Shown here: positions 9,336 to 39,096 of the stretch, piece by piece
Layout of the letters: every line of letters begins with the position of its first letter
Numbering within the stretch: position 1 is the stretch's first letter
Origin: Caldifarciminota bacterium
Lineage (GTDB): Bacteria; Hydrothermota; Tepidihabitantia; Tepidihabitantales; Tepidihabitantaceae
Direction of reading: 5' to 3'
DNA length: 43,501 nt
Assembly: GCA_026397595.1 (NCBI GenBank)
Contig: JAPLUO010000130.1
Location: 1-43,501, forward strand
Program-made: the position numbers and the translations under genes
The notes under the pieces: model-generated
Seen by the model: only the letters and a program-made list of their open reading frames with translations
Databases searched by the model: none
Told to the model about the DNA's origin: nothing

Positions 9336-10261
9336 CCAACAACGCCATCGAAGTACGCGACCTCGTGCGCCGGTTCGGCAGCTTCACCGCGGTCGACCAC
9401 ATCTCGTTCCATATCGAACGCGGCGAGGTATTCGGTTTCCTCGGCCCGAACGGCGCGGGCAAGACGACCACAATCAAGGTACTCATCGGCATCCTCGCGC
9501 CCACGTCCGGGACCTGCCGCGTACTCGGCCTGGACGTGCTGCGTGACACCGCCCGGCTCAAGCAGTCGGTCGGGTACATGTCCCAGAAGTTCTCCTTGTA
9601 CGAGGACCTGACCGCGCAGGAGAACCTGGATTTCTTCGGCTCGGTGTACGGCTTGTCGCGGCTTGCGCTGGGGCCCGCAATCGACCACGCCCTGGCCCGG
9701 TTCGAGCTGGAGCGATTCAGGCAGGTGCAGGCGTCCGAGCTACCAACCGGCGTCCGCCAGCGCCTAGCCCTGGCATGCGCAATCCTGCACGACCCCGGTG
9801 TGCTGTTCCTCGACGAGCCGACGTCGGGGATGGACCCGGCATCGCGCCGCAAGTTCTGGGAGTTGATTCACGTACTCGCTGGCCAGGGCAAGACTGTGCT
9901 CGTCACGACCCATTATCTCGACGAGGCCGAGTACTGCAACCGGCTGTGCCTGATAAGCCAGGCACGGATCATCGCCGAGGGTACGCCGGAACACGTGCGC
10001 AGCCTCGCCAAAGGCGGCGCCCTCAACATCGCCTGTTCGCCACTGGGCAAGTGCCTCTCGGCCCTGCTCGGCCGGCCGGACCTGGGCGAGACTTCGATAT
10101 ACGGAGGCAGTTTGCGGCTGGTCACTCGTGACCCGGACCGGGCGCGGGCTGCTCTGCCCGGCCTGCTGACCCAGGCCGGCACGTCGCTCGAATCGGTAAC
10201 GCCCGACCGGCCCACGCTTGAGGATGTTTTCGTGCAGCTTGTGAGGGCATCGAATGCGTGA
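9332..10261 (+). CDS. ABC-2 exporter ATP-binding protein B (degenerate signature)
   Basis: 309 residues, cytoplasmic ATPase partnering the previous gene. Walker A GPNGAGKTT, Walker B VLFLDEPTSGMDP and the H-loop TTHYLDEAEY are canonical, but the signature is LPTGVRQR in place of LSGGxxQR. The C-terminal RPTLEDVFVQL is typical of YbhF/CcmA-like exporters. In Escherichia coli YbhF two such ATPase domains are fused; here they are separate, translationally coupled genes. The end overlaps the following permease by 8 bases. Confidence 0.92.
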   Translation: MTNNAIEVRDLVRRFGSFTAVDHISFHIERGEVFGFLGPNGAGKTTTIKVLIGILAPTSGTCRVLGLDVLRDTARLKQSVGYMSQKFSLYEDLTAQENLDFFGSVYGLSRLALGPAIDHALARFELERFRQVQASELPTGVRQRLALACAILHDPGVLFLDEPTSGMDPASRRKFWELIHVLAGQGKTVLVTTHYLDEAEYCNRLCLISQARIIAEGTPEHVRSLAKGGALNIACSPLGKCLSALLGRPDLGETSIYGGSLRLVTRDPDRARAALPGLLTQAGTSLESVTPDRPTLEDVFVQLVRASNA

Positions 10262-20068: not shown

Positions 20069-20255
20069 TGGTTCCTTGATTCCTTCCCGGATAGGTTCGT
20101 CGATTCCTTACTCGAATCCTTCCCGGATTATATACTCGATTCTCACCCCGATTCGTTCCTCAAATGGTTCCTCGATTGTTACCCCGATTCCTTCCTTGAA
20201 TGGTTCCTCGATTGCTATCTCGACTCCTTCGTCGAATGGTTCCTCAAAACCTTAG
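20069..20255. repeat. 12-bp degenerate tandem array (unit near CTCGATTCNTTC)
   Basis: About 15 units of 12 bases, e.g. GTCGATTCCTTA, CTCGAATCCTTC, CCCGATTCGTTC, CTTGAATGGTTC, GTCGAATGGTTC. It translates to a W/F-L-D tetrapeptide repeat in one frame, but no start or family supports a gene. A different unit from the arrays at 19451 and 32589, but the same period. Confidence 0.75.
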
Positions 20256-28326: not shown

Positions 28327-29441
28327 TCAGCCTCTCTTCTGCGCCATGCGGCGCTTCAGTTCATCAATCCTGTCAATCTCCATCGCGTCCTTGCCCAGCA
28401 GCCGCGCCAGTTCCACTGAAACCAAGTCACCGAGCATGATGAGCGAGAATACCCGGGCAAGACGCGACCGGCCCTCGCTTTCAAGACGCATGGCAAGGTG
28501 ATAGGCCTGCTCAGTGATGTCGAGCACCGACTCCAGCCGATACCGCGTGCGCGGGCGGGTTTCGCGGTCCAGCAAGGCGACCACGACAACATCCCGGCCC
28601 GGGTTCTCAGGGTGGCCCATACCGACAATCTCGTTGTGATTATGCTCGGGAAACGAGTTGGTGTGACACAGCACTCCGGCATTCTCGTTGAACTGGCAGC
28701 GCCAGCGGTCCGCGACCGCGTCAAGCATCCGGCTGGTCGAATAGACAATCGGCAACCGACCGTCAATGTGCTTCGCTATCGTGCGGGCTCGCACGAGCCA
28801 GGGCCTGCGTCTGGCTCGCATCAGCCGCACCGCCTCTTCGAGTCCGCGCTGGTGGCCTTTGCACACGCCCGACCGCTCGAGGCTCACCAGCAACGTCGAG
28901 AACAAGTGTCCCAGCGCTGCGCGCGGCGGCATCCCGGCCGGCACTGGGACGACCGAGTACCCAGCCTTTGCCGCGGACCGTCCGAGTTCGCCGCCGCTAG
29001 TAATGGCGATGATGCAGCAGCCCCGTTTGCGGGCCTGCGCATAAGCGGACAGGGTCTCCTCGGTGTTACCCGAGTAGCTGACTGCCACGAACAAAGTCTC
29101 TGAGGAGACCGCAGCCGGGATGTCATAGTCGTTGCACACGAATAGAGGCACGCCCAGTTTGTCGAGCAGCAGTCCGTGGACAATCCTCGCGCTGATTCCG
29201 GACCCGCCCATGCCGGCGACTGCGACCGCATCGAACCTCGGGGACTGTTCCGAGGAGAGGATTGAGGATTGAGGATTGAGGAGGACGGATTAGGATTTCC
29301 CTCTTCAGTCTTCACTCTTCCCTCTTCAGTCTTCCCCCGCACGGGGACTGTCCCCAAAACCGACTTTCCAAGGGTCACCGCACGCGCAGCCCTTGCTCCC
29401 TGCTCAATCTGGTCCGGCAGGCTCATAACAAGTTGCAGCAT
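28327..29441 (-). pseudogene. SIS-domain phosphoglucose/phosphomannose isomerase, frame broken by a repeat insertion
   Basis: The family interconverts glucose-6-P, fructose-6-P and mannose-6-P. The N-terminal piece starts at ATG 29441 (LVMSLPDQIEQGARAARAV). The rest resumes as RFDAVAVAGMGGSGISARIV and continues with VSYSGNTEETLSAY, HNHNEIVGMG and RYRLESVLDI, but in a different frame. In relatives these two parts are separated by only a few residues. Here about 120 bp lie between them (29236-29357): two heptad arrays flanked by GGGGACTGTCCCC-type palindromes. The downstream frame has stops inside the insert, so a full-length product needs a frame change. The distal 885 bases are intact from ATG 29211, which might be translated alone without the N-terminus. 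Confidence 0.8.
29236..29357. repeat. Insertion unit: palindrome, two heptad arrays, palindrome
   Basis: From left: CCTCGGGGACTGTTCCGAGG (29236-29255); GAGGATT units (GGATTGAGGATTGAGGATTG); then CTCTTCA GTCTTCA, CTCTTCC CTCTTCA GTCTTCC to about 29335; then GGGGACTGTCCCC (29343-29355). It lies inside the isomerase coding sequence. Confidence 0.75.
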
Positions 29442-29450
29442 CCGCTCAGT

Positions 29451-29490
29451 CCCGCTATTCGTCATTCGGACTTCGTCATTCGGACTTCGT
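29451..29490. repeat. CGAA heptad array between ptsI and the isomerase
   Basis: Minus strand CGAAGTC CGAATGA, CGAAGTC CGAATGA, CGAATAG. It fills almost the whole 53-base gap. Confidence 0.8.
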
Positions 29491-29494
29491 CGCC

Positions 29495-31270
29495 TCACTT
29501 GCCCTTGTTCTCCTCGAATTGGAACCCGGCGAGATGCGGGAACTTCCGGTCCATCTCGCGCCGGAGCAGGTTCTTCACCTCGAGCGCGGTGCCCAACTTC
29601 AACGCATGTGTTACGACCTCCGCAGCGACGCCGGTGTCGATGTTGCGAATGATGCCTTTGGCTTCGGGAATCATGCCCGGGGAAACCGACATCTCGTCAA
29701 CACCCATGCCGAGCAGTACCAGCATGCCCAGCAGGTCGGACGCGAACTCGCCGCACATGCCCACCCATATCCCCTGCTGGTGCGCCGCATCAATCGTCCT
29801 CTTGATGAGGTACAACACCGCCGGGTGGAGATGGTCGAACAGCTTGGCCACGTGTTCGTTGCCGCGGTCCACAGCCAGCGTGTACTGGGTCAGGTCATTT
29901 GACCCGATTGACAGGAAGCTGCATTCCTTCGCGAGCCGGTCAGCCATGATTGCCGCAGACGGGGTCTCGACCATCAAGCCGACCTCGAAGTCCGGGTCGA
30001 ACTCAACCCCTCTCGCCTTCAACGCTCCCTTTGCCCGCTCGACCTCCAGCTTGGCCCGGCGCAGCTCCTCGATTGTCGAGACCATCGGGAACATCACCTT
30101 CACGTTCCCGAACGCCGACGCCCGCAGGATTGCGCGAAGCTGGTCTCCGAACAAGTCTAACCTGCCAAGGGTCAAACGAATAGCCCGCAAACCCAGAAAA
30201 GGGTTCGCCTCAGTGTATCCGGCCAGCACCTTGTCGCCCCCGAGGTCGAACGTCCGGATGATGACCGGGTACGGCTTGAACATCTTCGCGACCTCGGTGT
30301 AAACCAGGAACTGTTCCTCCTCGGTCGGGGGCCGGCGCTTGGCCAGATACATGTACTCGGTACGGAACAGTCCCACCCCGCGCGCGCCGTACCGCTTCGC
30401 GGCCCTGGCCTCCGCTATGAACTCGATGTTGGCGGACAGGTCGATGGTCCGGCCATCCGCGGTGACCGGGTCGCTGGTCGTGAGGGCGCTCAGCGATTCG
30501 CGGTACACCCTCCTGCGTTCAATCTCGTCGTCGTACGCGCGCAGCCGGTTGGCGCTGGGGTTGAGAATCGCAAGGCCCCGATACCCGTCCACAAAGACCT
30601 TCTGGCCGTCGGCCACGTTCTCGCATAGCGGGCCGGTCCCGGCCACTGCGGGAATCTCCTTGGCCTTGGCCATGATGGCCGTGTGTGAAGTCTTGCCCCC
30701 GGCCTCAAGCACCAAGCCAACGATCCTGCGCGGGTCGAGCAGCGCCGCCTCAGAGGGCGGCAGGTCATGGGCGACCACGACCGTGCCCGGCGCAACCTCA
30801 AGCAGCGACCGCGTATCATCACCGAGCAGGTGGCGCATCACCCGGTTCGACACGTCCGCAATGTCCAGCATCCGCTCCTTGAACAGCGGGTCTGCCGACC
30901 TGGCTACCGGCTCCGACATCGACTTCACGGTCTGGGCGTATGAGAACTCCGCGTTCCGCAGCGCCTCGCGGATGAACGCCTCAGTGTTCTTGATGACTTC
31001 CTCATCACGTATCAACGTAAGCTGGACCTCGATGAAGTCGGCAAAGTCAGGCCCGAGGTCCCGCTTCACCTGTGTGTAGAGCGTGTGCAACTCCCGCTCG
31101 GCCGCGTGCAGCGCCTGCCGGAACCGCTTCAGCTCGTCCGCGACCTGCGCCGGCTCAAGCACCCTCTCCTCCGGGGCAGGCGCGTACTGGCGATAGACCT
31201 GCGCCGCGCCCTGGGCAAACCCCGGGGATACGGGGATTCCCCGACAGCTCTTCTCGATACTACGCGCCAT
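29495..31270 (-). CDS. ptsI: PTS enzyme I (phosphoenolpyruvate-protein phosphotransferase)
   Basis: 591 residues, slightly longer than the usual ~575. It transfers phosphate from PEP to HPr. The phospho-histidine site is GGKTSHTAIMAKAKEIPA (about residues 190-207); the PEP-binding barrel shows GVGLFRTEYMYL, IIRTFDLGGDK, MFPMVSTIEEL, SIGSNDLTQYTLAVDR and the catalytic cysteine in VGMCGEFASD. The start overlaps the end of ptsH by 11 bases. No enzyme II gene occurs in the window, so a regulatory rather than sugar-uptake role is possible. Confidence 0.97.
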   Translation of the reverse strand: MARSIEKSCRGIPVSPGFAQGAAQVYRQYAPAPEERVLEPAQVADELKRFRQALHAAERELHTLYTQVKRDLGPDFADFIEVQLTLIRDEEVIKNTEAFIREALRNAEFSYAQTVKSMSEPVARSADPLFKERMLDIADVSNRVMRHLLGDDTRSLLEVAPGTVVVAHDLPPSEAALLDPRRIVGLVLEAGGKTSHTAIMAKAKEIPAVAGTGPLCENVADGQKVFVDGYRGLAILNPSANRLRAYDDEIERRRVYRESLSALTTSDPVTADGRTIDLSANIEFIAEARAAKRYGARGVGLFRTEYMYLAKRRPPTEEEQFLVYTEVAKMFKPYPVIIRTFDLGGDKVLAGYTEANPFLGLRAIRLTLGRLDLFGDQLRAILRASAFGNVKVMFPMVSTIEELRRAKLEVERAKGALKARGVEFDPDFEVGLMVETPSAAIMADRLAKECSFLSIGSNDLTQYTLAVDRGNEHVAKLFDHLHPAVLYLIKRTIDAAHQQGIWVGMCGEFASDLLGMLVLLGMGVDEMSVSPGMIPEAKGIIRNIDTGVAAEVVTHALKLGTALEVKNLLRREMDRKFPHLAGFQFEENKGK

Positions 31271-31529
31271 CGCGGTCCAATGTCTCGAGCTTCCGCTTCA
31301 GCAGCTCGAACGCGTCGCGCTCATCCTCACCCTGCACCTCAAGCACGACGACGCTCCCCTTGGAGGCTGCCAGCGTCAACAGGGCCAGGATGGACTTGCC
31401 GTTCACGCGCATGCCGTCCTTTGTCAGCCGGATTTCCGAGGAGTATCGCTCAGACAGTCGCACGAAATCCGAGGCCGGCCGGGCATGAAGCCCGACCACG
31501 CCGCCGATAGTCACCTTGCCTTTCAACAT
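31260..31529 (-). CDS. ptsH: HPr phosphocarrier protein
   Basis: 89 residues from ATG 31529 (MLKGKVTIGG). It carries the phospho-accepting histidine in GLHARPASDFV and the regulatory serine in NGKSILALLTLAA, so both His15-type and Ser46-type phosphorylation are possible. I prefer ATG 31529 over an upstream in-frame start at 31583, because the extra residues are encoded by the octad repeat. No ribosome binding site is evident. First gene of the ptsH-ptsI-isomerase-nucleotidyltransferase run. Confidence 0.95.
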   Translation of the reverse strand: MLKGKVTIGGVVGLHARPASDFVRLSERYSSEIRLTKDGMRVNGKSILALLTLAASKGSVVVLEVQGEDERDAFELLKRKLETLDRDGA

Positions 31530-31550
31530 GAGGAGAGAAAGGAAGAAGGG

Positions 31551-31620
31551 ATCGAGGGATCGAGAGATCGAGTGTCCGGACACTCGACCACTAGACCACT
31601 AGACCACTGGGACACATCTC
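31551..31620. repeat. Octad arrays GATCGAGN and ACCACTAG
   Basis: GATCGAGG GATCGAGA, then GATCGAGT, then TGTCCGGACA, then ACCACTAG ACCACTAG ACCACTGG. Period 8 throughout, directly upstream of ptsH on its promoter side. Confidence 0.7.
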
Positions 31621-32588: not shown

Positions 32589-32850
32589 GTGAAATCCCAA
32601 GTCGAATCCCAAATGGAATCCCAAATGCAGTCCCAAATGGAGTCCCAAATCAAGTCCCAAATCGAATCCTAAATGAAGTCCCAAGTGAACTCCCAAATGA
32701 GATGCCTCTTTCGGACCCAAGTGAAATCCAAAATGCCCTGCCTTCTCCAGTGCCAAATGGAATCCCAAGTGAAGTCCCAAATGAAATCCCCAGTGAAATC
32801 CCTTCTGCAGTCCCTTCTGGAATCCCTACTGGGATCCCTTCTGGAATGAC
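32589..32850. repeat. 12-bp degenerate tandem array (unit near RTGRARTCCCAA)
   Basis: About 20 units: GTGAAATCCCAA, GTCGAATCCCAA, ATGGAATCCCAA, ATGCAGTCCCAA, later drifting to CTGGAATCCCTT. The best preserved 12-bp array in the window. Open frames on both strands encode only tetrapeptide repeats (IPNG-like or GLHL-like), so it is not annotated as protein. A CTGA heptad array (CTGAATG CTGACTA CTGACTA) follows at 32956-32990. Confidence 0.85.
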
Positions 32851-33056: not shown

Positions 33057-34508
33057 ATGTATCGTAGCCGACTGACATTCGCACTGGCCATGGCCGCATT
33101 GGCCGCAATCCTCGTACCCTCAACCCTGACCGCCCAAATCACCTTCCAGCGCACCTACGGCGGCGAAGCCGAAGATCGGGGCCGCTCGGTCCAGCGGACT
33201 GCCGATGGCGGCTACATCATCGGCGGTGAGACCTTTTCCTTCGGTGCAGGATTGAGCGACGTCTATCTTGTTAAGACCACGGCTCAGGGCGAGACTCTCT
33301 GGACCAGGAGCCTCGGCGGCACAGGCTTTGACTACGGCCGGTCGGTCTGCCAGGCCGCAGATGGCGGCTACTTCATCGTCGGTTACACCGAGTCCTACGG
33401 CGTCGGCGGCGACGCCTACGTGATCAAGACCGACGCCTTTGGCCAGATTATTTGGACCAAGACGTTCGGCGGCCAGAACTTTGACTTTGGCGAGTCGGTA
33501 TGGCCAACCGCGGACAGCGGCTTCCTCGTCGCCGGACAGAGCTACTCCTCCGGCGCCGGTAGCGCCGACGTCTACCTCATCAAGGGCAATGCCAATGGCG
33601 ACACTCTCTGGACCCGGACCTTCGGAGGTCTGGATTTCGACTGCGCCCGTTCCGTCCAACAGACTCCCGACGGTGGCTACATCGTCGTAGGATTCACGAA
33701 GTCCTTTGGCGCGGGCCTGGAAGACATCTACCTTATCAAGACCGACGCTCACGGCGACACGCTGTGGACGAGGACGTTCGGCGGTGCCGATGACGACTGC
33801 GGCTTGTCGGTCGCGCGGACCACTGACGGCGGCTATGTCGTCACCGGCTATACCTACTCTTACGGAGCCGGCTACTCTGATATCTATCTATTGAAGACCG
33901 GCGCCTCGGGAGACTCGACATGGACCAGGACGTTCGGGGGCGAGGGCTACGACAAGGGCAACTCCGTCCAGCAGACCACAGATGGTGGCTACATCATCGT
34001 AGGGGAAACGAACTCCTTCGGCGCAGTCAACGGGGACGTCTATCTCGTTAAGACCGACGCCGCCGGCGACGCCATGTGGACCAGGACCTTCGGCGGCGCG
34101 GGCGGCGAGGTGGGCTACTCCGTTCAGCAGACCGCTGACGGCGGCTACGTCATCGCGGGCATTGCAGCCTCCTTCGGCGCAGTCGGGGATGACGTCTATC
34201 TCATCAAGACTGATTCGCTCGGCATTCTCGCTGTGGCGGAGCCGAAGACAAGCCCGGCCCGCGCTCCGGCGCTGTCGCTCTCCTGCGAGCCGAATCCTTG
34301 TCGCGGAGCGACAACGATTCGTACATCGTACATCGTTCCTCGTTCGTCGATGTCCGTCTATGACGCGCAGGGTCGCATGGCGCTGGCGCGTCAGGTCTCG
34401 ACCTCGTCATTTCCCCTTTCCACTTCAGACTTGCCCTCGGGAACTTACTTCATCCGCCTCGCCGCCGCCGGCCATCTCGCGACCCAGCGCCTCATCGTGC
34501 AGCACTAA
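33057..34508 (+). CDS. Secreted seven-repeat beta-propeller protein, paralog 1
   Basis: 483 residues. Signal peptide ends near LTAQ (about residue 30). Seven modules of about 52 residues follow, each of the form SVQQTxDGGYIIxG, GAGxxDVYLIKTDAxGDTLW, TRTFGG; seven copies suit a seven-bladed propeller. The last ~90 residues (SCEPNPCRGA..., MSVYDAQGRM, SGTYFIRLAAAG) form a Por/type IX secretion-type sorting domain. Within that domain lies a heptad array, CGTACAT CGTACAT CGTTCCT CGTTCGT (34319-34352). First of three tandem paralogs. Function unknown; probably cell-surface. Confidence 0.87.
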   Translation: MYRSRLTFALAMAALAAILVPSTLTAQITFQRTYGGEAEDRGRSVQRTADGGYIIGGETFSFGAGLSDVYLVKTTAQGETLWTRSLGGTGFDYGRSVCQAADGGYFIVGYTESYGVGGDAYVIKTDAFGQIIWTKTFGGQNFDFGESVWPTADSGFLVAGQSYSSGAGSADVYLIKGNANGDTLWTRTFGGLDFDCARSVQQTPDGGYIVVGFTKSFGAGLEDIYLIKTDAHGDTLWTRTFGGADDDCGLSVARTTDGGYVVTGYTYSYGAGYSDIYLLKTGASGDSTWTRTFGGEGYDKGNSVQQTTDGGYIIVGETNSFGAVNGDVYLVKTDAAGDAMWTRTFGGAGGEVGYSVQQTADGGYVIAGIAASFGAVGDDVYLIKTDSLGILAVAEPKTSPARAPALSLSCEPNPCRGATTIRTSYIVPRSSMSVYDAQGRMALARQVSTSSFPLSTSDLPSGTYFIRLAAAGHLATQRLIVQH

Positions 34509-36085
34509 CAGGCATGGTTACGAAAGGAAACAGTCATGTATCATAGCAGACTAATGTCCACACTGGCCATGGCCGCATTGGCCGCAATCCTCGTACCCCC
34601 AGCCCTGACAGCCCAAATCACCTTCCAGCGCACCTACGGCGGAACCGCGAATGAAGACGGCCGATCGGTTCAGCAAACCACGGATGGCGGCTACATCATC
34701 GCCGGCTGGACCGACTCTTACGGTGCAGGCGGTGACCTCTATCTCATTAAGACCAACGCCAATGGCGACACCGTGTTGACGAGAACCTTCGGCGGTGTCG
34801 GTATCGATATCGCCAGCGCAGTCCAGCAGACTGCCGACGGCGGTTACATCATCGCCGGTTGGACCACGTCCTTCGGCGCAGGCGACCCCGACGTCTATCT
34901 CATTAAGACCGATGCCGCCGGCGACACACTGTGGACGAGAACCTACGGTGGTTCGATGGAGGACTACGGGTTCTCAGTCCTGCAGACCGCCGACTCCGGC
35001 TACATCATCGCCGGGCAGACCAATTCCTTTGGCGCGGGCGCCACTGACTTCTATCTCGTCAAGACCAATGCCACCGGCGACACGCTCTGGAGCCGAACTT
35101 ACGGCGGCGCTGGCGATGACTGGGGCAACTCAGTCCAGCAGGAGGCCGATGGTGGCTACATCATCGCCGGGTACACCAGTTCCTTTGGCGCAGGCGACGC
35201 CGACGTGTGCCTCATCAAGACCGACGCCAACGGCGACACGCTCTGGAGCCGAACTTACGGCGGGACTTACGAGGACTGGGGCGCCTCAGTCCAGCAGACG
35301 ACTGACGGCGGCTACATCATCGCTGGGGACGCGACGGACTCCGGCGGGGACAATTACAACGTCTACCTCATCAAGACCGGCGCCAATGGCGATACGCTAT
35401 GGACGAGGACATTCGGCGGCGCGTACGGCGACCTTGGCTATTCAGTCCAGCAGACCGCTGACAGCGGTTATGTCATCGTGGGCTACACCGAATCGTTTGG
35501 TGCAGGCAACCGTGACGTCTATCTCATCAAGACCGATGCCAGCGGCGACACGCTATGGACGCGCTCCTTCGGCGGCTCCGACCAGGATTTCGGCAACTCC
35601 GTCCAGCAGACCAACGACGGGGGGTACATCATAACCGGAGGAACCGATTCTTACGGCGCGGGCAACAACGACGTCTATCTCCTCAAGACCGATTCGTTGG
35701 GCAATGTCGCAGTTGCGGAGACGAAGGCAAGCCCGACCCGGACCCGGGCCTTCTCGCTTTCCTGCGAGCCGAACCCGTCCCGCGGTTCCGTCATTATCTC
35801 CCTTTCTCCCTCTATCCCTTTGTCCCTCTCCCCCATCCTGCGCATCTACGACAGTCAGGGCCGCATGGTTCTCTCACGCCCGGTCTCGACCTCGTCATTT
35901 CCCATTTCCACTTCAGACTTGCCATCGGGAACTTACTTCATCCGCCTCGCCGCCGCCGGCCATCTCGCGACCCAGCGCCTCATCCTGCAGCACTAACAGG
36001 CATGGTTACGAAGGGAAACAGTCATGTATCATAGCAGACTAATGTCCACACTGGCCATGGCCGCATTGGCCGCAATCCTCATACC
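34395..36085 (+). repeat. Junction-spanning direct repeat between propeller paralogs
   Basis: About 34395-34605 and 35885-36085 are nearly identical: both cover the last ~35 codons of one paralog, the 27-base gap with CAGGCATGGTTACGAA, and the first ~25 codons of the next. The middle of each gene is far less similar. The two copies are ~1.49 kb apart. Confidence 0.8.
34536..35996 (+). CDS. Secreted seven-repeat beta-propeller protein, paralog 2
   Basis: 486 residues, same plan as paralog 1: signal peptide to LTAQ, seven ~52-residue modules (DGGYIIAGWTDSYGAGGDLY, then YLIKTDAAGDTLWTRTYGG and so on), C-terminal sorting domain. Where paralog 1 has CGTNCNT heptads, this gene has octads TCCCTTTC TCCCTCTA TCCCTTTG TCCCTCTC (35807-35840), encoding SLSPSIPLSLSP. 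The ribosome binding site is GAAAGGAAACAGTC before ATG 34536. Only 27 bases separate it from paralog 1. Confidence 0.87.
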   Translation: MYHSRLMSTLAMAALAAILVPPALTAQITFQRTYGGTANEDGRSVQQTTDGGYIIAGWTDSYGAGGDLYLIKTNANGDTVLTRTFGGVGIDIASAVQQTADGGYIIAGWTTSFGAGDPDVYLIKTDAAGDTLWTRTYGGSMEDYGFSVLQTADSGYIIAGQTNSFGAGATDFYLVKTNATGDTLWSRTYGGAGDDWGNSVQQEADGGYIIAGYTSSFGAGDADVCLIKTDANGDTLWSRTYGGTYEDWGASVQQTTDGGYIIAGDATDSGGDNYNVYLIKTGANGDTLWTRTFGGAYGDLGYSVQQTADSGYVIVGYTESFGAGNRDVYLIKTDASGDTLWTRSFGGSDQDFGNSVQQTNDGGYIITGGTDSYGAGNNDVYLLKTDSLGNVAVAETKASPTRTRAFSLSCEPNPSRGSVIISLSPSIPLSLSPILRIYDSQGRMVLSRPVSTSSFPISTSDLPSGTYFIRLAAAGHLATQRLILQH

Positions 36086-37599: not shown

Positions 37600-39096
37600 C
37601 TACTGCTGACGCCCCAGTTCTTTCTCGCCGAAGACCTGTCCGGTGAAGCAGGAGAGCTGCGCGTCCTTGTCTTTGTAGGAGTTCGGCGGCAGTCCTGCCT
37701 TCAGGCAGGTATGCATGAGGAACTGCTCGCGGTTCCAGCCCTGTTCGACCGGCACCTGCGGCAGGAGCAGGCCGGAACGAAACCCCTTACGGATGACCAG
37801 GCCGTGCTTGCCCACGATAACCGAATCCGGACTCGGCAGGGGCCGCAGCGGGCTCAGGACAGTTATCTCAATCTCGATGCTGTCCAGTTCGTCGACCTGC
37901 ACCGGGGGAAACCGCGGGTCCTCGGTCGAGGCGGCGACGGCCATATCGCTCACTGCTTGGTACAGCGGCTTTACCGCTTCAACATACCCGATGCACCCGC
38001 GCAGCTCGCCGTGCTCGTGCAGAGTCACAAATGCCCCGCGTTTCTCGCCCAGCTTCGGCGTCAGCGGCTTCGCCTCCGGGACCTTGCCGGAACGGATGTG
38101 GCTTTCCAGCGTGCTGCGAGCAATCCGGAGCAGGCTCTTCTGTTCCGTCTCGGTCAGGTCAGACGACTCCTCTTTGTTCTGTCCGGATGCGAGGAATGCG
38201 ACCACGCTGTATCCAACGCAGTACCCTCCCCGCTCGCCCGTTACGTCGTTCGAGTTGGTCTGCGCCAGCACGACCGCAGCGTCCGCGCCCAGCTCGCGGG
38301 CGGCAACCATCATGGCGGTAATCGCATTTCCCCCGCACGCCTGGGCCTCGTCCCGCTCCAGCGCCGCATGGAATGCCTTCGGGTCAAACTTGGCCATCAA
38401 CCCGACCGTGACGCCGTCGATTCGGTTGGCGTCCTCGTAAGAGTCCCCGTGATACAGGTCGGACGAAGCGAGCAGCAAGACCTTTTTTCCTTTGGCCGCC
38501 TTGGCTATGGCCTTGCCAACCCGCTCGCACTGCTCAAAGGTCGGCTGGAGCAGCATGATCGGGACAATCTTGAAGCTGCCCAGCACCCGCTGCAGGAACG
38601 GCACCTCGACCTCGATCGAGTGTTCCCGCGCGTGCGCCTCGGGCATATCGGCAAGGAACTTGTCCTGCGCCAGAATCGCCTTGGCCAGCGGTTCGTCAAT
38701 TGCCACGTCACCCAGCGGCGTGTGCCACGACCCGCGGGCATACACCGCGGCCTTGTCCAGCATGACGTGATGGCTGGTGCCCAGCATCACGACCGAAGGA
38801 GGACAGTCCCCGATGTCTGACCCGGGCCCTGGGGACTGTCCCCAAGCCTGCAGCAACTTGAAGGCGTGGGCAGCGGTCGGGCCGGAGAAAGGATAGCCCG
38901 CATGCGGTACTTGGATCCCGACCAGTCTGCCCGAAACCGCGGGCACCTCGGCCGCGGCCAGCATCGAGTCAACCATCGTGGTCAGGGTCTTCGCGTCGCC
39001 CGGGTAGAACTGCCCTGCGACCGCCGGTTGTCTTGCCATCGTAACCTCCTTTGGCTGCGCGCACGCCAGCAGCGCCAGCACAGCCAGGCAACTCAT
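37600..39096 (-). CDS. MEMO-AMMECR1 fusion protein (AmmeMemoRadiSam B plus A), possibly a lipoprotein
   Basis: About 498 residues. The N-terminal MEMO-like domain (RQPAVAGQFYPGDAKTL, VPHAGYPFSGPTAAHAF, GTSHHV, AREHSIEVEVPFLQ, LASSDLYH) resembles class III extradiol dioxygenases; the C-terminal AMMECR1 domain shows RGAFVTLHEHGELRGCIGYVE and STEDPRFPPV. Two starts are plausible: ATG 39096, with GGAGG six bases upstream, adds a leader ending LALLAC that looks like a lipobox; ATG 39039 (MARQPAVAG), with AAAGGAGG five bases upstream, gives a cytoplasmic form. A 15-residue insert near AWGQSPGPGSDIGDC is encoded by a hairpin repeat. The radical SAM partner of this system is not in the window. Confidence 0.9.
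   Translation of the reverse strand: MSCLAVLALLACAQPKEVTMARQPAVAGQFYPGDAKTLTTMVDSMLAAAEVPAVSGRLVGIQVPHAGYPFSGPTAAHAFKLLQAWGQSPGPGSDIGDCPPSVVMLGTSHHVMLDKAAVYARGSWHTPLGDVAIDEPLAKAILAQDKFLADMPEAHAREHSIEVEVPFLQRVLGSFKIVPIMLLQPTFEQCERVGKAIAKAAKGKKVLLLASSDLYHGDSYEDANRIDGVTVGLMAKFDPKAFHAALERDEAQACGGNAITAMMVAARELGADAAVVLAQTNSNDVTGERGGYCVGYSVVAFLASGQNKEESSDLTETEQKSLLRIARSTLESHIRSGKVPEAKPLTPKLGEKRGAFVTLHEHGELRGCIGYVEAVKPLYQAVSDMAVAASTEDPRFPPVQVDELDSIEIEITVLSPLRPLPSPDSVIVGKHGLVIRKGFRSGLLLPQVPVEQGWNREQFLMHTCLKAGLPPNSYKDKDAQLSCFTGQVFGEKELGRQQ
38801..38841. repeat. In-frame hairpin insertion in the MEMO domain
   Basis: GGACAGTCCCC (38801-38811) and GGGGACTGTCC (38831-38841) form a perfect 11-bp inverted repeat with a 19-base loop. 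The word GGGGACTGTCCCC recurs in the insertion at 29343-29355. Confidence 0.75.

Follow-up and report, generated by a model that had tools for sequence, protein, structure and literature searches.

A bifunctional phosphoglucose/phosphomannose isomerase gene (pgi/pmi, hereafter pgi) is written in two reading frames on a contig of an uncultured bacterium, which raises the question of what split the gene and whether it can still be read. The window, meaning the whole stretch of 43,501 nucleotides that was analysed, is contig C313 of G000, a metagenome-assembled genome (MAG) of the WOR-3 phylum (4.7 Mb, 494 contigs, 94% complete, 6.6% contaminated). We compared G000 with five congeners; the nearest of the genomes compared was G005 (candidate division WOR-3 bacterium AlinenSedimentsD0_bin-1181).

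The pgi gene is split by a nested insertion

Profile searches gave the minus-strand order HPr, PtsI, bifunctional isomerase, nucleotidyltransferase and Tgt, an order that is maintained in the congeners by synteny. The first-pass annotation had described an isomerase gene conserved apart from an insertion, within an intact pts-sugar operon, and both the profile matches and the synteny agree with this for hpr-ptsI-pgi. The distal part of the gene scored 257.6 bits against TIGR02128, above the curated cut-off of 213.9. The features of the locus are:

28327-29465, minus strand: whole pgi/pmi gene, with its ATG at 29465
28327..29235, minus strand: distal pgi/pmi in frame B, SIS domain onwards (NF006423 and TIGR02128 above curated cut-off; 82% identity to congeners; catalytic-domain alignment to 1tzb)
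29240..29248, plus strand: left half (GGGGACTGT) of the first palindrome of a 36-bp element (by position and register against a 39-copy consensus)
29249..29334, no strand assigned: 86-bp composite double heptad array within the first palindrome (a homologous composite in a TPR-type gene is one heptad longer)
29257..29282, no strand assigned: perfect heptad tract (GAGGATT/TCCTCAA, 3.7 units), one unit missing relative to the TPR copies
29297..29336, no strand assigned: second heptad array (TCTTCAG/TCTTCAC/TCTTCCC units)
29335..29361, plus strand: remainder of the 36-bp element (CCCC-GCAC-GGGGACTGTCCCC-AAAACC), identical to the genome-wide consensus
29362..29465, minus strand: N-terminal pgi/pmi in frame A (MTNSGTERMLQLVMSLPDQIEQGARAARAVTLGKS), in agreement with congener N-termini
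29458..29491, no strand assigned: heptad array at the ptsI-pgi junction, separate from the insertion; related heptad-like sequence lies at the equivalent place in G005 and G003
29495..31270, minus strand: intact ptsI (PTS enzyme I; TIGR01417, synteny)
31260..31583, minus strand: intact HPr phosphocarrier gene (TIGR01003)

The N-terminal frame (MTNSGTERMLQLVMSLPDQIEQGARAARAVTLGKS) and the distal frame (FDAVAVAGMGGSGISAR...) differ, which bears out the earlier statement that the N-terminal and catalytic parts are out of register, and the gene is uninterrupted in five of five congeners. The proposed disruption by an insertion was likewise confirmed, as alignment with the orthologues of these five relatives showed that they lack the segment. 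The N-terminal frame enters the insertion and continues out of frame; a TAA within the insertion precedes the start of the distal frame (FDAVAVAGMGGSG...). Between conserved anchors, the net gain relative to G003 is 119 bp, or 2 mod 3. No target duplication was visible in the comparison with congeners, and DNA folding of the entire insert as a hairpin is not unusual (z -0.65).

The segment had been read as two heptad arrays and two bounding palindromes. It does consist only of two heptad arrays and palindrome sequence, but the arrays interrupt one dimeric element, and the two palindromes are its halves. The register of the 39-copy consensus rules out two independent palindromes bounding the array, and only one palindrome (29343-29355) is intact. 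The insertion is nested: the arrays lie inside the element and the element lies inside the gene. The 86 bp of the composite equal 2 mod 3, and a change of +7 or -14 bp would restore the frame.

In G005, the pgi linker is replaced by a different heptad array, which is in frame. Common ancestry of the two pgi arrays was rejected on the TGTCAAT-type units of the G005 linker, which we treated as an independent event. The G005 gene is itself split over two contigs (C441 and C174; L060 and L070); one part has 79% identity to G000 and the last 70 codons have 97%, a jump that points to possible recombination or strain mixture.

The palindromic element occupies loops of conserved proteins in frame

Alignment of 39 dimers of G000 revealed a sharply bounded 36-bp element, GGGGACTGTCCCC-GCAC-GGGGACTGTCCCC-AAAACC, with no conservation outside it. 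It comprises two 13-bp palindromes in a 30-bp dimer followed by an AAAACC tail, and its 36 bp amount to 12 codons. The exact 13-bp palindrome occurs in 125 copies in G000 and in 8-29 copies in each of the five congeners, with sporadic copies elsewhere in the phylum; the reversed control gave 0 in G000 and 0 in the genus. Within the window, five matches with at most one mismatch were found, compared to 0.06 expected.

In-frame copies of the element in G000 occupy loops in UvrC, ThrRS, AlaRS, MEMO and GTPase genes, where they yield recurring short peptides (GDCPRTGTVPKT, LGTVPVRGQSP) within conserved proteins. The hosts of the element by Pfam are MEMO, the AlaRS DHHA1 domain, an MMR_HSR1 GTPase and an antiporter subunit; UvrC, the ThrRS N-terminus and a group of C-terminal sorting-like domains were recognised by eye. 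Ten further genes with the element and a congener comparison have orthologues without it, and the length differences are frame-preserving. At several element sites of G000, a congener has a heptad array instead. A second copy of the element is present in the window:

38799..38843, minus strand: 36-bp element in frame in a MEMO-family gene

In the C-terminal sorting-like domains (RGVLFLxGDCPRTGTVPKTVLLDISGRKVLDL...) of L033, L034, L037, L044, L077, L085 and others, the element sits at one common spot, often with a heptad array directly upstream. A repeat of another class, GCAGATGGACGCCGATGGAC-type with units of ~12 bp, fills the loop of UvrC in the congener G004 (L156) where the G000 protein has the palindromic element. 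In G136, from a distant family of the phylum, palindrome pairs occur at the 17-bp spacing seen in this genus, and most intermediate genomes are without the palindrome; horizontal spread is possible.

One flank of the element carries the A-rich AAAACC, the other shows no conserved tag, and a GT(A/G)G / CGTC tag at the foot is absent. Among 34 Y1 loci, taken from draft assemblies that may lack a partner, no Y1 transposase gene was flanked by GGGGACTGTCCCC. The terminal repeats of the Y1 transposases in the genus are of GGGGAC type, similar but not equal to the element, and two family members that have the palindrome give no Y1 hit. A direct RAYT partner of the element was sought without success among the Y1 loci examined.

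A homologous composite is present in a TPR-type gene

In G000, a search with the pgi insertion brought up one further strong match to the double array, inside an unrelated 591-codon gene that we assigned by eye to the TPR type. The sister species G005 has the composite in the same gene. There it is in frame, reading RGKSEERGVKTEEGNPKPPSSILHPHSSILSSDR. The presence of the same double array in an unrelated gene upholds the earlier suggestion that the arrays arrive as a discrete unit, and we infer that the composite moved as a block, from the TPR gene to pgi or to both from a third place, either of which may be the case.

The pgi composite aligns with the G005 TPR copy over 95 columns with a single 7-bp gap in the TCCTCAA tract. 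The score of the pgi-TPR alignment is 111; in 106 comparisons with other arrays, the best was 41. We rejected an alignment without gaps between the pgi and G000 TPR composites, since it mismatches the spacer that the 7-bp gap brings into line. On entry into the composite, the pgi frame has the phase of the TPR gene (RGKTEEGRVKTEEGNPNPSSSILNPQSS), and on exit the distal pgi frame has that phase too (SSILSSEQSPRFDAV). Since both ends are in TPR phase and the pgi copy is short by one heptad, a single missing heptad accounts for the frameshift. The TPR copies of G000 and G005 differ by 21 bp, equal to three heptads, and the pgi copy differs from the G000 TPR copy in the other array too.

Heptad arrays are frequent in the genus and normally preserve the frame

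Over 373 kb of G000, we counted 66 arrays at lag 7, compared to 0-4 at lags 5, 6 and 9-11. Frames were called with a hexamer-based test, in which many elements stayed uncalled (one flank only), so that the counts are a sample. For 22 elements (13 arrays, 9 palindromes), the two flanks were both called as coding and share one frame; none of these elements shifts its gene, and two of the 13 frame-preserving arrays have a stop that fits the gene end. Four frame changes across elements are boundaries between neighbouring genes, and the candidate frame-broken genes at L086 5621/6371, L087 9027 and L079 9505 were rejected as gene junctions. For ten in-frame arrays, the orthologous loops of the congeners mostly contain arrays or array-like linkers as well, often of different heptad units and in frame; hosts recognised by eye include LipA, ThiL, NadB and a radical SAM protein. 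Coding arrays are normally frame-preserving in this genus.

At L079 (~9505-9622), a heptad block seems to make up the N-terminal end (MKKLQTANCKLQTFSSA...) of a protein predicted to be exported, and arrays may be recruited as coding starts there. The window also contains repeats of other period classes, namely arrays of 12- and 36-bp units at 32593-32847 and 20072-20245 (AATCCCAAATG..., TTCCTCGATTCG...) and ~156-bp tandem repeats encoding GGYIIAG-type units at 33921-35693.

A proposed history of the locus

We consider it probable, from comparison of the aligned copies, that the assembled pgi is a recent or polymorphic allele, one heptad short, that followed nested insertion of the element and then of the composite. 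Comparison with relatives shows that a 36-bp REP/RPE-like element came into pgi in the G000 lineage, at a point between helix 1 and the first SIS strand; alone, it would preserve the frame and read LGTVPVRGQSP as elsewhere. The homology to the in-frame TPR-gene composite suggests that the first palindrome then received a copy of a two-array composite. A plausible route for this presumed copying would be template switching at the hairpin, by way of short GGA matches. Finally, the length of the TCCTCAA tract, one heptad below both TPR copies, points to a change that shifted the frame, presumably by loss of one unit. The order of these steps is our reading, because the pgi copy also differs from the TPR copy of its own genome in the other array.

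As assembled, the allele would encode a truncated N-terminal product and leave a still-conserved catalytic part untranslated. It would be either a recent loss of function or a member of a length-variable population in which +1 or -2 units gives an in-frame gene. At 3.7 units, the perfect tract is short for frequent slippage, which counts against the loss of one heptad. As the frame error equals one heptad, the likely cause is a change of repeat count at the DNA level or an assembly collapse of one unit. Judged from sequence, the lesion would be recent, polymorphic, or one heptad dropped in assembly.

Alternative explanations

The main rival, which we regard as unlikely but serious, is that the true array is one heptad longer with pgi in frame, and that a k-mer assembler collapsed a TCCTCAA unit or joined this place to the TPR copy. 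In favour of this, a single repeat unit makes up the whole difference, every other gene that can be compared stays in frame, and the pgi region shares a 25-bp exact match with the TPR locus of G000, the perfect tract itself measuring 26 bp. However, the 43.5-kb contig continues through this place, and a tract one unit longer would measure ~33 bp, so that a collapse would need short k-mers. Such a length is well below the read length and the final k-mer sizes of current short-read assemblers.

We find it rather doubtful that pgi is a phase-variable contingency locus whose heptad copy number toggles the gene in the population, by analogy with neuO of E. coli K1, a surface-modifying accessory gene with 3-53 heptad repeats and a frame set by their count modulo three (PMC13001214). 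The pgi heptads also lie in coding sequence, with a frame set by the count modulo three and restored by +1 or -2 units, and neuO, which is ON only at multiples of three, provides a precedent for coding heptads. Unlike neuO, pgi has a perfect tract of only 3.7 units, and a sole enzyme of central metabolism would be an unusual target.

The first-pass annotation had itself offered three outcomes, namely a dead gene, a restart of the distal frame at 29211, or rescue by slippage. For the first, in which pgi is a fixed pseudogene and the cell manages without it, the broken consensus frame stands, but the remaining evidence points the other way and we hold this to be improbable. The distal 302 codons show no other lesion, the operon is conserved, and dN/dS of the distal part against congeners is 0.10-0.15. 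The dN from G000 to every outgroup is smaller than that from G005, so there is no acceleration on the G000 branch, and relaxed selection was rejected on these values. We found no other PGI (PF00342, PF06560) in G000, which has one G6PI_arch-type gene only, although another may be missing from a MAG that is 94% complete and 6.6% contaminated.

That the gene works as it is, by restart or by a -1 ribosomal shift, is very improbable: the distal ORF from ATG 29211 spans 294 codons, but in the 1tzb alignment it starts inside GMGGSG and loses the first SIS strand, whose placement we take from the known fold, with no ATG, GTG or TTG upstream of 29211 in the distal frame after the TAA; and two -1 slippery heptamers (X_XXY_YYZ) exist in frame A, but both lie upstream of stops in the target frame and none falls in the open stretch before FDAVAVAG.

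Relation to known systems

Taken singly, heptamer arrays, palindromic insertions that keep the frame and phase variation by heptads all have precedents. Rickettsia palindromic elements (RPE, Ogata et al. 2000) are short palindromic repeats found in frame in many conserved protein genes and also between genes, at 105-146 bp (PMC2229807), and shorter families exist (PMC3733652). The WOR-3 element resembles them in behaviour, as a multi-copy palindrome in frame within genes with empty sites in congeners; it differs in its 36-bp length, its presumably distinct sequence and its capacity to receive heptad arrays. REPs are high-copy palindromes of 20-40 bp, mostly dimers, and some lie inside genes including uvr genes (PMC2817692, PMC3733652). 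The WOR-3 element is likewise short, high-copy and often dimeric, and Y1 transposases with GGGGAC-type terminal repeats are present, but it is without the GTAG/CGTC tag and no examined Y1 gene is flanked by its palindrome.

Heptanucleotide arrays (cyanobacterial STRR, TAACTGA and LSSR surveys) are reported as the most frequent kind of longer repeat in many genomes (PMC4679880), and the WOR-3 genome has them at many places. Its arrays are, in contrast, degenerate, belong to many unit families, lie in frame within conserved-enzyme loops and, in the same loop, have units that differ between sister species; TAACTGA arrays, unlike these, are chiefly upstream of genes. The tandem repeats of Borg elements evolve fast and lie in ORFs with reading frames undisturbed (PMC9879509), a likeness to the WOR-3 arrays. 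Borg ORF units are divisible by three, whereas the WOR-3 unit is seven and the frame is kept through total length. In the open-access literature searched, we found neither the exact palindrome nor the nesting, the copied composite, a frame one unit off in a sole PGI, or unit turnover between sister species in the same enzyme loops.

Tentatively, and with less confidence than in the history proposed for pgi, the genus may actively write or copy blocks of heptad arrays, as mobile units, into those loops of essential enzymes that tolerate them; the heptad count modulo three would police the frame, units would turn over from species to species, and pgi would have been caught one unit off, perhaps because it switches central sugar metabolism on and off. 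In conclusion, layers of repeat invasion can be read in order within one enzyme gene, with an element in the gene, an array in the element, and the array one unit off. In this genus, palindromes or heptad arrays fill loops of core enzymes (UvrC, ThrRS, AlaRS, LipA, ThiL and NadB), with sequences that vary from one species to the next, and a copied composite with donor-like and recipient sites makes the origin and spread of seven-base arrays in bacteria testable.
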